Shown here: in pieces, positions 34,346-56,871 of the stretch
How the letters are laid out: each line of letters starts with the position of its first letter
Position numbering within the stretch: the stretch's first letter is position 1
Source of the DNA: Nitratireductor indicus C115
GTDB taxonomy: Bacteria; Pseudomonadota; Alphaproteobacteria; Rhizobiales; Rhizobiaceae
NCBI RefSeq assembly: GCF_000300515.1
Contig: NZ_AMSI01000008.1
Span: 1-64,000 of the forward strand
Length of the DNA: 64,000 bases
Direction of reading: 5' to 3'
Notes under the pieces: model-generated
Told to the model about the DNA's origin: nothing
What the model saw: only the letters and a program-made list of their open reading frames with translations
The model's database searches: none
Translations under genes and position numbers: made by a program

Positions 34346-34753
34346 ATGGCTGACGCTTTCAAGTTCGATCTGGTCTCGCCCGAGCGGCTCCTCGTCTCGC
34401 AGGAAGTCGAATCGGTTGTCATCCCCGGCACCGAGGGTGAGCTGACCGTGATGGCCAATCACGCTCCGACGATGACCAGCGTCAAGCCGGGCGTCCTGAC
34501 GGTGAAGGCTGCCGGTGGCGGTACCGAACGCTATGTGGTGTTCGGTGGCTTCGCGGACATCCTGCCGGAAGGTTGCACGGTCCTGGCTGAATCGGCTGTA
34601 CATGTCGATGACATCAATCGCGAGGACCTTGCGCGCCGCATTCAGGATGCGCGCGAGGACGTGGCCGATGCCGAGGATCATGAGACCCGGCTACGGGCTG
34701 AAGATTTCCTCCACCAGCTGACCACGCTGGAAGGCGCGATCATTCCGGCCTGA
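34346..34753 (+). CDS. atpC: ATP synthase F1 epsilon subunit
   Basis: Rotor and inhibitory subunit. 135 residues: N-terminal beta-sandwich (FKFDLVSPERLLVSQEVESV, VVIPGTEGELTVMANHAPTM) and a C-terminal helical part that reads EDLARRIQDAREDVADAED, with DFLHQLTTLEGAI at the end. Last gene of the operon, 94 bases after atpD. Downstream are an intergenic repeat copy and a strong terminator at 34867-34892. Confidence 0.97.
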   Translation: MADAFKFDLVSPERLLVSQEVESVVIPGTEGELTVMANHAPTMTSVKPGVLTVKAAGGGTERYVVFGGFADILPEGCTVLAESAVHVDDINREDLARRIQDAREDVADAEDHETRLRAEDFLHQLTTLEGAIIPA

Positions 34754-34866: not shown

Positions 34867-34892
34867 AAGCCGGGCCAATGGCCCGGCTTTTC
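34867..34892 (+). terminator. Rho-independent terminator of the atp operon
   Basis: AAGCCGGGCC (34867-34876) pairs perfectly with GGCCCGGCTT (34880-34889) around AAT, followed by TTTCTGTTT. It lies 113 bases after atpC. Confidence 0.88.
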
Positions 34893-34945: not shown

Positions 34946-34975
34946 CTTGAACCGCCCTTAAGGCATGACCATATC
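34946..34975 (+). promoter_or_regulatory. Candidate promoter of the small-ORF/sRNA unit
   Basis: CTTGAA at 34946-34951 and CATATC at 34970-34975 are separated by 18 bases, which fits the housekeeping promoter pattern of this group. Transcription would start near 34982, about 30 bases before the 22-codon ORF. It lies after the atp terminator, so the unit downstream would be independent of the operon. Confidence 0.45.
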
Positions 34976-35011
34976 GGGGCTGAGTTCAACAAACCGAAAG
35001 GAGGTGGTCCA

Positions 35012-35080
35012 ATGTCGAGTGATTTCCGTTCCAGCGCGGTTTCGACGGATTGCCTTCACGGAGAGCAGTCTCTCCGCTGA
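35012..35080 (+). CDS. 22-residue small ORF with near-perfect Shine-Dalgarno
   Basis: ATG at 35012 lies seven bases behind AAGGAGG, among the best ribosome-binding sites in the window. The peptide begins MSSDFRSSAV and ends HGEQSLR, is hydrophilic, has one cysteine, and lacks a signal or membrane segment. Its 3' third forms the 5' arm of a strong hairpin whose 3' arm includes the TGA, so ribosome transit would unfold it. No similarity to known leader peptides (no run of a single amino acid) is visible. Coding is supported by the ribosome-binding site only. Confidence 0.5.
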   Translation: MSSDFRSSAVSTDCLHGEQSLR

Positions 35081-35148
35081 AGGCACGAAGCGCGGCCTGC
35101 CTTTGCCTGTAAGGTCGGTCAGAGCCGTGCGGGAACATGAAAACACGG

Positions 35149-35175
35149 GGCCGCTTCTTCGGAAGCGGCCTTTTG
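35149..35175 (+). terminator. Terminator with UUCG tetraloop
   Basis: GGCCGCTTC (35149-35157) and GAAGCGGCC (35162-35170) enclose TTCG, which gives the extra-stable C(UUCG)G loop, and TTTTG follows. It ends the small-ORF unit and also lies just past the 3' end of the convergent Excalibur gene. Confidence 0.9.
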
Positions 35176-35192
35176 TTTGGCGTCGACGCCTC

Positions 35193-35459
35193 TCAACAGC
35201 CGATTTCCGCCCGGATTTCATCGACGAGCTTCTTGTTGGGGCAGACATTCTCACAAGGGATGCCGTCTTTGTCGGCATCGGCCCTGCTGTAGCCCTCGCG
35301 CCACATGATGACCGCTTCCCGGCAGGAGCTGACCGTCTTGCAGGTGCGCCGAGCCTGCGCAATGACAAGGGACTGACCGACGTTTGCGTCACGCGCAATG
35401 CCATTGTCAGCGCCAAACAGAGCCAGGCCCGCAATAAAGATGAAAAATCCCCTGCCCAT
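35193..35459 (-). CDS. Secreted Excalibur-domain protein
   Basis: 88 residues: N-terminal signal or anchor (GFFIFIAGLALFGADNGIA) and a cysteine-rich calcium-binding Excalibur-like domain. CKTVSSCREAVIMW and ADADKDGIPCENVC give the DxDxDGxxCE pattern; five cysteines lie in about 50 residues. Such domains are often fused to secreted thermonucleases; here a nuclease gene lies 65 bases upstream on the same strand, so the two may act together outside the cytoplasm. Calcium binding is inferred from the motif. The frame could start at the first ATG (MGRGFF). Confidence 0.85.
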   Translation of the reverse strand: MGRGFFIFIAGLALFGADNGIARDANVGQSLVIAQARRTCKTVSSCREAVIMWREGYSRADADKDGIPCENVCPNKKLVDEIRAEIGC

Positions 35460-55866: not shown

Positions 55867-56871
55867 ATGTGGGATTTCAGCGTCACGAACGCGTTTCGCC
55901 TGATGGCGGCGACGACGCCCTTTCTGCTGTTTCGCGCGATGGTCTATTTCGGTATCGCCGTGGCCTATGTGCTGGCGACGGGTGTCGGCGCCGGGGTCGG
56001 CTATGGCATTGGCGGCTTCGCCGGACCTGACGATCAGGCAGGCTATGCCATATGGGGCGGGGGGATCGGTTTTTCGCTGACAGCGGGCGTTCTCTACTTC
56101 CTGCGGGAATATATTCTCTACACTGTCAAGGCGGCGCACATCGCGGTGCTCGTGGAGAAGATGGATGGCCGCCCGTTGCCCGAAGGACGCGGCCAGATGG
56201 CCTATGGTGCCTCGGTGGTAAAGGAGCGGTTCGCGCAGGCCAGCGTGCTGTTTGCCGTCGATCAGCTGGTCAAGGGGGTGATCCGGGCGATTACCGGGCT
56301 GGTGCAGGGTATTCTTTCTTTCCTTCCCATTCCGGGCCTCGACAACATTGCGCGCATCCTGCGTGCGTTTCTCAACGTCGCGGTCGGCTTCATCGATGAG
56401 GTGATCCTTGCGCATGCCATCCGCACCCGCAGCGACAATGCATGGGCTTCGGCCCGCGAGGCGCTGGTGCTTTATGGCCAGAACCATAAGGCCATGCTCA
56501 AGAATGCCGCGTTTCTTGCCGTCATCGTCTATGGTCTTTCCTTCCTCGTCTTTCTGGTGATGCTCGCTCCCGCCGCAGCAGTGGTTTATCTGATGCCGGG
56601 TGCATGGAGCGCCGGCGGCATGATCTTCGCGCTGCTGTTTGCCTGGGCGGTAAAGGCTGCGCTGATCGAGCCTTTCGCCATCACCTGCATGATGCAGGTC
56701 TTTTTCAAGGTAACGGAAGGCCAGGTTCCCGATCCCGCCTGGGATGCGAAGCTGGAGCAGATGTCCGGGAAATTCCGCGCACTGAAGGACAAGGCGGTGG
56801 GCGCTATGGGCGGTCGCCCCGCGGGAGGGCAACAAGGCCCGGGTGCTGCGGGCCACGAAGGGGCTCTGTGA
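55867..56871 (+). CDS. Membrane protein of unknown function, partner of VWA protein
   Basis: 334 residues with four to five membrane segments: about 20-45 (RAMVYFGIAVAYVLATGVGA), 58-82, a reentrant or amphipathic stretch at 130-160, and two strong helices at 215-240 and 243-270. Between them lie long cytoplasmic-type stretches (ALVLYGQNHKAMLKNAA). The last 35 residues are Gly/Gln/Pro-rich. I do not recognise a family. The stop overlaps the VWA-gene ATG (TGATG), so the two products are made together and likely work together. An ATG directly follows a TTG at 55864; either may start it. Confidence 0.75.
   Translation: MWDFSVTNAFRLMAATTPFLLFRAMVYFGIAVAYVLATGVGAGVGYGIGGFAGPDDQAGYAIWGGGIGFSLTAGVLYFLREYILYTVKAAHIAVLVEKMDGRPLPEGRGQMAYGASVVKERFAQASVLFAVDQLVKGVIRAITGLVQGILSFLPIPGLDNIARILRAFLNVAVGFIDEVILAHAIRTRSDNAWASAREALVLYGQNHKAMLKNAAFLAVIVYGLSFLVFLVMLAPAAAVVYLMPGAWSAGGMIFALLFAWAVKAALIEPFAITCMMQVFFKVTEGQVPDPAWDAKLEQMSGKFRALKDKAVGAMGGRPAGGQQGPGAAGHEGAL

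Follow-up and report, generated by a model that had tools for sequence, protein, structure and literature searches.

A compact transcription unit behind atpC in Nitratireductor indicus: a divergent relative of the Caulobacter RNA CC2171 and a candidate ribosome-gated RNA

Between atpC and the convergent gene of an Excalibur-domain protein, Nitratireductor indicus C115 carries a compact intergenic transcription unit which, judged by sequence comparison, is a member of a class-wide alphaproteobacterial RNA family around the Rfam entry CC2171. Its short ORF starts directly behind a tract that is complementary to the 3′ tail of 16S rRNA, and its selected features, as far as they can be read from comparison, are mostly features of an RNA: the tract, the start codon, an internal mimic of the 16S tail, a hairpin with a CARY loop, a long-range helix and the terminator. 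On balance we favour reading the unit as a translated, bistable, ribosome-gated regulatory RNA that would work in trans or affect its own stability, with the encoded peptide mostly a by-product. All claims have a computational basis, to which one published Mesorhizobium transcript is added. The window referred to throughout is the whole stretch of DNA that was analysed, 64,000 nucleotides in length.

Layout of the unit and its relation to CC2171

The features of the unit and its surroundings are as follows.

34346-34753: atpC (Pfam ATP-synt_DE_N)
34867-34889: terminator-like site 3′ of atpC (terminator scanner)
34946-34951 and 34970-34975, plus strand: promoter-like elements, -35 CTTGAA and -10 CATATC with an 18-nt spacer (sequence and family comparison)
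34985-34990, plus strand: UUCAAC leader motif (CAAC-like motif kept in the family)
34996-35011, plus strand: docking tract GAAAGGAGGTGGTCCA, containing the Shine-Dalgarno sequence (SD) (16S 3′ tail complementarity and conservation)
35003-35011, plus strand: 5′ strand of the predicted SD-masking helix, partner 35046-35054 (RNAalifold)
35012-35080, plus strand: 22-codon ORF MSSDFRSSAVSTDCLHGEQSLR with its stop; ATG at 35012, TGA at 35078-35080
35019-35050, plus strand: 5′ arm of the predicted rod, codons 3-13 (MFE pairs and covariation)
35046-35054, plus strand: internal anti-SD CGGATTGCC, a 16S-tail mimic and the partner of 35003-35011 in the alternative fold
35051-35085, plus strand: 15-bp stem with one bulge, stop codon within the 3′ arm (MFE fold)
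35059-35076, plus strand: conserved hairpin CGGAGAG-CAGT-CTCTCCG of the CARY loop type (pairing in relatives)
35114-35146, plus strand: 3′ arm of the predicted rod, directly 5′ of the terminator (MFE pairs and covariation)
35147-35175, plus strand: intrinsic terminator with an 11-bp stem, a C(UUCG)G loop and a short U tract (scanner and MFE fold, 35147-35172)
35193-35459, minus strand: Excalibur-domain protein gene, convergent with the unit (Pfam match)

A first-pass annotation of the same DNA had named the promoter, tract, ATG, 22-codon ORF, stem and terminator, and all of them are found where it had placed them. The 15-bp stem, with its one bulge and the stop codon, is likewise present, but as part of a larger predicted fold and not as a free-standing hairpin. 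A consensus scan with a sigma-70 rule gave no match to the promoter of the unit, and its support comes from comparison: TTG lies 59-71 nt 5′ of the start codon in 129 of 133 family members and CTTG at 65-67 nt in 113 of them, these 133 being the members, out of 155, in which a terminator was found by script. A CAAC-like leader motif is kept in 131 of the 133, and the UUCAAC at 34985 probably lies at or near the 5′ end of the RNA. At the other end, the pairs of the terminator stem covary among 39 relatives (RNAalifold). The unit would be read as an RNA of about 190 nt that is transcribed on its own, with predicted ends. No terminator was found by script at 18 of 170 and at 22 of 155 loci, and four more of 174 were too short; these loci are absent from the general anti-SD, cognate-pair, rod, promoter and fold-energy comparisons.

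The first-pass annotation had also proposed a comparison with Rfam by cmscan. This returned RF01867, aligned along the whole model (positions 1-159 of 159), with 30.8 bits and E 1.3e-4 for 801 bases. The score is below the cut-off of 75 bits that sets membership; no match to RF01867 was returned by the whole-window scan at the gathering threshold. By sequence, the unit is a divergent, below-threshold relative of RF01867, the Caulobacter sRNA CC2171. Continuity with proven members was found in the wider set of loci, 18 of 20 chosen members of which match RF01867 at E<=0.05, four of them above the cut-off; the two that do not match are the Azospirillum-type L034 and the Sphingomonadales locus L107. 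When the RF01867 model was applied to class genomes, 61 of 289 matched at E<=0.001 (nine above the cut-off), and among 14 named control genomes it found Caulobacter vibrioides only. CC2171 and the unit have in common an SD tract, a start codon, a long-range helix after the start and a terminator, in the same order, and the consensus helix CAUUGUC/GACAAUG of RF01867, directly after the start codon, takes the place of the rod of the unit; they differ in the ORF, the internal anti-SD and the hairpin.

The Caulobacter sRNAs reportedly go back to Landt 2008, and no function for CC2171 is stated in the literature searched (the 2008 Caulobacter sRNA paper lay outside that search). The Rfam 15 paper places RF01867 among the families gaining one covarying pair (PMC11701678). 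In Mesorhizobium huakuii 7653R, MH_s33 has been described as an intergenic RNA annotated RF01867, with a 215-nt transcript in RNA-seq; the description consulted is a table row, in which an ORF, 16S complementarity, a switch and a function do not figure (PMC5596092). The Mesorhizobium elements found here (L066, L139 and L163) are of the window's type, and MH_s33, going by its RF01867 annotation, is a probable relative of the unit. The unit is already partly known, as CC2171 in Rfam and as MH_s33 in Mesorhizobium. A weak match to RF02879 (MH_s10; 23.1 bits against a cut-off of 81, E 0.044) was also recorded on the minus strand at 35178-35306, mostly inside the Excalibur-domain gene.

The docking tract and its spread through the class

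The alphaproteobacterial 16S 3′ end contains GGCUGGAUCACCUCCUUUCU, as read from a Sinorhizobium meliloti oligonucleotide (PMC6943124). Against this tail, duplex prediction gives GAAAGGAGGTGGTCCA 16 contiguous pairs, one of them G.U, at -29.3 kcal/mol. When 47 ORFs of at least 120 aa were picked in the window and each was scored at the best of up to eight starts, the lowest energy, -32.1 kcal/mol, was that of the top position of the whole-window scan, which lies inside the unit itself; the next-lowest was -22.2 and the median -14.6 kcal/mol. Further 16S-tail duplexes near -30 kcal/mol were met in the energy scan at 56263 and 25225 (plus strand), and because of such sites reliance is placed on the ORF comparison and on the 16 contiguous pairs. 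When up to one mismatch was allowed, the genome gave a single match to the tract pattern and none to its reversed control. The 16S complementarity of the tract is more than chance. In two members of the family (L011 and L012) GGGGGTG replaces GGAGGTG; the same replacement is seen at G614:C4:10269 (L330), 5′ of an apparently ordinary gene.

That the tract surpasses all other scored ORF starts of the window in complementarity, and that this is kept across the class, is also what would be expected of a sponge or reservoir, in which the 16-nt tract binds free 30S subunits and lowers initiation with no further output. A start codon and an internal mask would be superfluous in such an RNA, and a group of relatives with a bulged tract (the GGAAGG group, below) has kept its internal partner, which a pure sponge disfavours; we hold this explanation to be improbable. 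A further candidate for the target of the tract is found in the alphaR8 sRNAs (SisA-D, MmgR), which occur across the class except in Rickettsiales and carry UUUCCUCCCU, and for which the unit could be a decoy in the way of CrfA, a known sponge in Caulobacter (PMC12559287). The duplex with the alphaR8 10-mer is predicted at -8.7 kcal/mol as against -29.3 kcal/mol with the 16S tail, and the UGAUCC of the tract would be left unexplained, so that a decoy is very unlikely. What these RNAs share with the unit is the use of SD/anti-SD chemistry in Alphaproteobacteria, by an anti-SD stretch in alphaR8 and by a G/A-rich loop in CrfA (PMC12559287); the unit, unlike either, combines a 16S-complementary tract with a start codon and a possible mask in one RNA. 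Extended SD:anti-SD pairing has likewise been reported to guide start-site choice in Staphylococcus aureus, there in ordinary mRNAs (PMC13009471), whereas the unit is predicted to pair with up to 16 nt of the 16S tail by a tract that can be masked within the same RNA.

BLAST of the unit gave matches in 32 of 61 genomes, namely its own, 10 of 10 congeneric genomes, 14 of 26 others of the family and 7 of 24 of the order, at least one of the last seven being false (hit L030 in G047 is not the unit). The first-pass annotation had made its reading depend on a homologous unit in close relatives, and the ten congeneric genomes all have one. A strict tract pattern matched 57 of the 385 genomes searched across the class and 147 of the 257 searched within the family (72 of 109 genera), with no match of the reversed pattern in either set; as a count of the unit, 147 of 257 is slightly too high, because at least four pattern matches are something else. 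In three of these (L243, L296 and L330) the tract opens into longer, ordinary-looking genes, and in L334 an unrelated short ORF stands behind it. Two of the 147 matching family genomes have two matches, the other 145 one each. A covariance model (R1), built here from 39 family members, found 92 of 116 genomes and 87 of 109 genera of the family at E<=0.01, the weakest of these being partial matches.

Across the phylum, a longer tract pattern was found in 26 of 200 genomes, all among the 51 class members sampled, and in none of the 149 genomes from outside the class. In titled genome contigs, at least 117 stretches carry the pattern, most with alphaproteobacterial titles; Sphingomonas, Paracoccus, Ruegeria, Bosea, Bradyrhizobium, Methylobacterium, Mesorhizobium, Brevundimonas, Azospirillum and others appear among the matches listed. 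The exceptions among the matches listed are one Gemmatimonadota record, one SAR92 record and a few titles that are too general. Two of the matches listed, under a Gemmatimonadota title (L093) and as an uncultured bacterium (L175), are alike and may be misbinned or transferred, and the one with the SAR92 title (L166) may be due to chance. Plasmid records gave no match in the tract pattern search. Among viral contigs, 11 stretches carry the tract, five with other phage-like ORFs and six with element-like ORFs; in L337, L340, L342, L343 and L344 a near-complete 16S-complementary SD tract stands before ORFs of 58, 372, 58, 58 and 71 aa, respectively. A scope of Hyphomicrobiales, as first suggested for the unit, is too narrow in view of its occurrence across Alphaproteobacteria.

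The short ORF, the alternative structures and the terminator would also suit an attenuator, or a leader peptide that acts in cis on a gene downstream. In the window, the gene downstream is on the opposite strand and convergent; a downstream ORF could be seen for 161 of 174 elements. Of these ORFs, 77 run in the direction of the element and 84 against it, and no conserved co-directional downstream gene was found among the 161. Neighbouring ORFs of at least 90 aa were picked greedily by length, for which reason single neighbour calls may be wrong; their families recur mainly within orders, with few exceptions. The strand split, the order-limited neighbours and the convergent gene make a cis-acting leader highly improbable. 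At 18 Rhodobacterales-type loci (L069, L073, L079, L096, L109, L173 and others) one upstream ORF family recurs, which we take to be a VUT/YhhQ-type transporter, and eight loci (seven of Rhodobacterales type and the Hyphomonadaceae locus L122) have a neighbouring ORF with a GGQ motif, presumably ArfB-like.

Peptide or RNA: the short ORF

Selection on the short ORF was measured as pN/pS from disjoint nearest pairs, with the first three codons omitted. No purifying selection was found on the window's peptide type, for which pN/pS is 0.92 (0.64-1.51), and the values of five sets, this one included, range from 0.83 to 1.54: the frame-shifted RSSL type stands at 0.99 (0.56-1.38), Rhodobacterales at 0.83 (0.63-1.08), Sphingomonadales at 1.47 (0.96-5.84) and the MSHC group at 1.54 (1.37-2.21; four pairs). 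The first 15 codons of the GGAAGG group gave 0.68 (0.50-1.01). As a control, the 22-aa members were read in all three frames, and pN/pS came to 1.47 for the true one and to 1.26 and 0.71 for the wrong ones, with wide intervals; the true frame is thus unmarked by selection in these members. Selection on the peptide was met only in a 25-aa subtype, at 0.48 (0.35-0.81), and in the Azospirillum-type relatives, at 0.41 (0.27-0.50; 12 pairs). Peptide lengths lie mostly between 14 aa (Bradyrhizobium type) and 36 aa, one peptide of 44 aa belonging to a non-alphaproteobacterial record; peptides of different orders have little in common beyond MS, and a Pfam search at E<=0.001 gave nothing for the peptide of the mini-ORF. 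Of 42 MSS-group members, 30 have the motif GAGCARYC within the ORF; 26 of them carry it in frame 0 and four in frame 1 or 2. In this comparison the mostly constant frame speaks for a peptide and the exceptions for an RNA. The GGAGCAGCCTC motif reads EQP in most members and falls in another frame in others (RSSL type).

These results bear on the possibility that the unit is a conserved small-protein gene, its RNA a short mRNA and its peptide the active product. The start codon and in-frame stop of the listed members (found by patterns that contain the start codon), the 26 of 30 motifs in frame 0 and the low pN/pS of the 25-aa subtype and the Azospirillum type are what such a gene would be expected to show. 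The pN/pS of the five sets and of the GGAAGG group, the unmarked true frame, lengths from 14 to 59 aa with so little shared between orders, the motif that outlives the frame change in the RSSL type and the lack of a Pfam match argue against it, and we consider it rather unlikely. For the group of the window, the small-protein gene of the first-pass annotation is accordingly given up, since pN/pS is 0.92 and the motif is kept across frames, with the Azospirillum type and the 25-aa subtype as exceptions.

A further question is whether the start site is used. As the search patterns contain the start codon, its conservation rests on the members found by model: it is kept in 7 of 7 loci found by RF01867 and missed by the pattern, and in 19 of 20 loci found by R1, in which set L429 is shifted by one base and the remaining locus, L426, was misanchored and left out. 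In the Azospirillum-type relatives (L346-L370 and L151), which were found in 25 of 59 genomes and 3 of 13 genera of that family, the same tract and start site head a conserved protein of 56-59 aa whose N terminus looks, by eye, like a signal peptide. Because this protein begins at the same start, the start site of the RNA family is probably translated, and the Azospirillum-type protein is the best evidence for it. The alternative suggestion of the first-pass annotation, an sRNA whose SD also binds ribosomes, comes close, in that the unit is self-contained, conserved and RNA-like and has a ribosome-binding start, at which binding of the 30S subunit is presumed. The dual-function RNA rnTrpL also has a short translated ORF on a small RNA; it derives from the trp attenuator, is leaderless and encodes a functional 14-aa peptide (PMC10117765). 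The unit differs from it in having no downstream operon and mostly no selection on the peptide, and its translation is deduced from the Azospirillum type.

Two predicted folds and a possible ribosome gate

The first-pass reading was incomplete in that it left out a partner of the SD inside the unit and the pairing of the ORF with the segment before the terminator. The latter pairing is that of the predicted minimum free energy fold of the window's transcript, a rod in which codons 3-13 pair with 35114-35146 and the 15-bp stem forms the tip, the tract being left with only six weak local pairs. Its energy, -88.7 kcal/mol, is 4.1 sd below that of dinucleotide shuffles, none of 200 being as good. 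For the helix beside the start codon, 78 distinct family combinations from 131 members were examined, in which 78.8% of cells are paired (shuffle mean 71.2%, maximum 74.5%; none of 1000 as high) and 53 cells are changed on both sides, against a shuffle maximum of 38 (1000 shuffles, kinship ignored); the counts of pairs with both-side changes and of pair types, equalled or exceeded by 141 and 58 of 1000 shuffles, were unremarkable. Cognate 3′ segments are predicted to pair better than those of foreign groups, with -29.6 vs -17.9 kcal/mol in the MSHC group, -25.4 vs -17.1 in MSS, -22.6 vs -16.2 in Rhodobacterales and -25.5 vs -18.6 in Sphingomonadales, and 4-11% of foreign segments are as good as the cognate one in these four; the corresponding figures for the Bradyrhizobium (14%), Azospirillum (26%) and Aceto (35%) types come from small sets and are less convincing.

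The second fold was recognised only after alignment, later than a general test for an internal anti-SD over the transcript, which had been weak (mean z -1.08 in MSS, -0.56 in MSHC, -0.14 in Sphingomonadales and -1.44 in the Bradyrhizobium type) and gave -2.00 in Rhodobacterales and -2.16 in the Aceto type. In the RNAalifold consensus of 39 relatives, GGUGAUCCR of the tract pairs with YGGAUYGCC inside the ORF, with 98.9% of cells paired. The last pair of this masking helix is G-C in 24 relatives, A-U in 12 and G-U in one, and is unpaired in two, of which the window is one (A.C at 35011:35046); most of the A-U rows are from the window's genus and its near kin, so that independent covariation events are few. 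The CARY hairpin is also paired in 98.9% of cells, with both-side changes at two of seven pairs. Taken together, both helices and the hairpin are paired in 91.3% of cells in the 39 relatives, as against 41-49% with the partner slid, the per-helix values of this combined test being 98.9, 80.7, 91.2 and 98.9%. They show 58 both-side cells vs 22.5 in shuffles and a covariation score of 0.227 vs 0.167 (each 0 of 500 as high, kinship ignored); the number of pairs with both-side changes was nine vs 7.1 (65 of 500 as high) and that of pair types 36 vs 35.8 (290 of 500), neither standing out from the shuffles.

The predicted energies of the unconstrained and masked folds are -88.7 and -82.4 kcal/mol in the window, and -82.5 and -81.0, -88.0 and -84.0, and -83.5 and -82.7 kcal/mol in three relatives, so that a structure constrained to the masking helix is less stable by 6.3 kcal/mol in the window and by 1.5, 4.0 and 0.8 kcal/mol in the relatives. 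In L007, one of these relatives, the fold predicted without constraint matches the rod only in part, and some of the tract is already paired locally. The partner motif GGRTYRYY was found in 11 of 39 MSHC members (3.2 in shuffles), 3 of 3 of Azospirillum type (0.3), 3 of 3 of Aceto type (0.5), 3 of 21 MSS members outside the family set (1.7) and 0 of 5 others (0.4); it is absent at the place searched in 65 of 152 family members. A pair rule applied, with kinship ignored, to the 82 distinct members with the motif is fitted by ten A-T and 56 G-C combinations, with six G-T wobbles, and is not fitted by seven A-C and three G-G; 15 A-T and two G-C were counted among 21 in MSHC, and 3 of 11 fit in the Bradyrhizobium, Azospirillum and Aceto types together.

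A divergent group found by R1 has the tract AAAGGAAGGTGATCC, with a one-base bulge against 16S (one member, L416, has GGATGG instead). In 14 of 15 members of this GGAAGG type, CYUUCY follows within 40 nt of the stop codon, as CCTTCC in 13, and the same is true of 2 of 152 members of the GGAGG type. On this comparison the tract left 16S and a matching partner came along, at another place than the GGAUYGCC element. No other single observation speaks as strongly for selection on masking as this swap, even if the 15 members, being related, may represent one or few events. A masked SD with an internal partner and 5′-3′ pairing is also the layout of a type I toxin-like mRNA, hok-type mRNAs being comparable. 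The peptides of the unit are short, by eye non-hydrophobic and not conserved, and of the 147 family genomes with a match, 145 have just one; a toxin is the reading to which we give the least credence.

Our preferred reading, the ribosome-gated RNA, takes the two predicted folds, of similar energy, as alternatives: in the masked form the tract would be held by the internal anti-SD, and in the rod the ORF by the 3′ segment. The masked fold would form first during transcription and the rod later. A 30S subunit would dock on the exposed tract only, and initiation on, or translation of, the mini-ORF would break the rod and block the return of the masked form, so that a ribosome on the mini-ORF would keep the RNA out of both folds. 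It is since 30S loading would need the exposed form and translation would break the rod that the RNA is seen as ribosome-gated. The two interleaving helices could instead coexist as a pseudoknot. A more specific proposal, which we put forward tentatively and regard as possible rather than probable, is that this bistable, class-wide RNA mimics both partners of initiation, with a docking site for 16S and its own copy of the tail; because free 30S subunits would compete with the internal copy, the fold would report ribosome availability.

If that were so, the freed anti-SD segment or the hairpin would then act on other RNAs, and the unit would be a sensor of free ribosomes made of RNA alone. The level of free ribosomes is a central variable of growth, and we know of no direct RNA sensor of it. 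Nearly always single-copy where it was counted and kept over several alphaproteobacterial orders, with a 16S-matched start site, a candidate internal mask and no function stated in the literature searched, the unit qualifies well as a candidate general regulator linked to translation, and its Azospirillum-type relatives suggest a route from the start site of an RNA to a conserved small protein.
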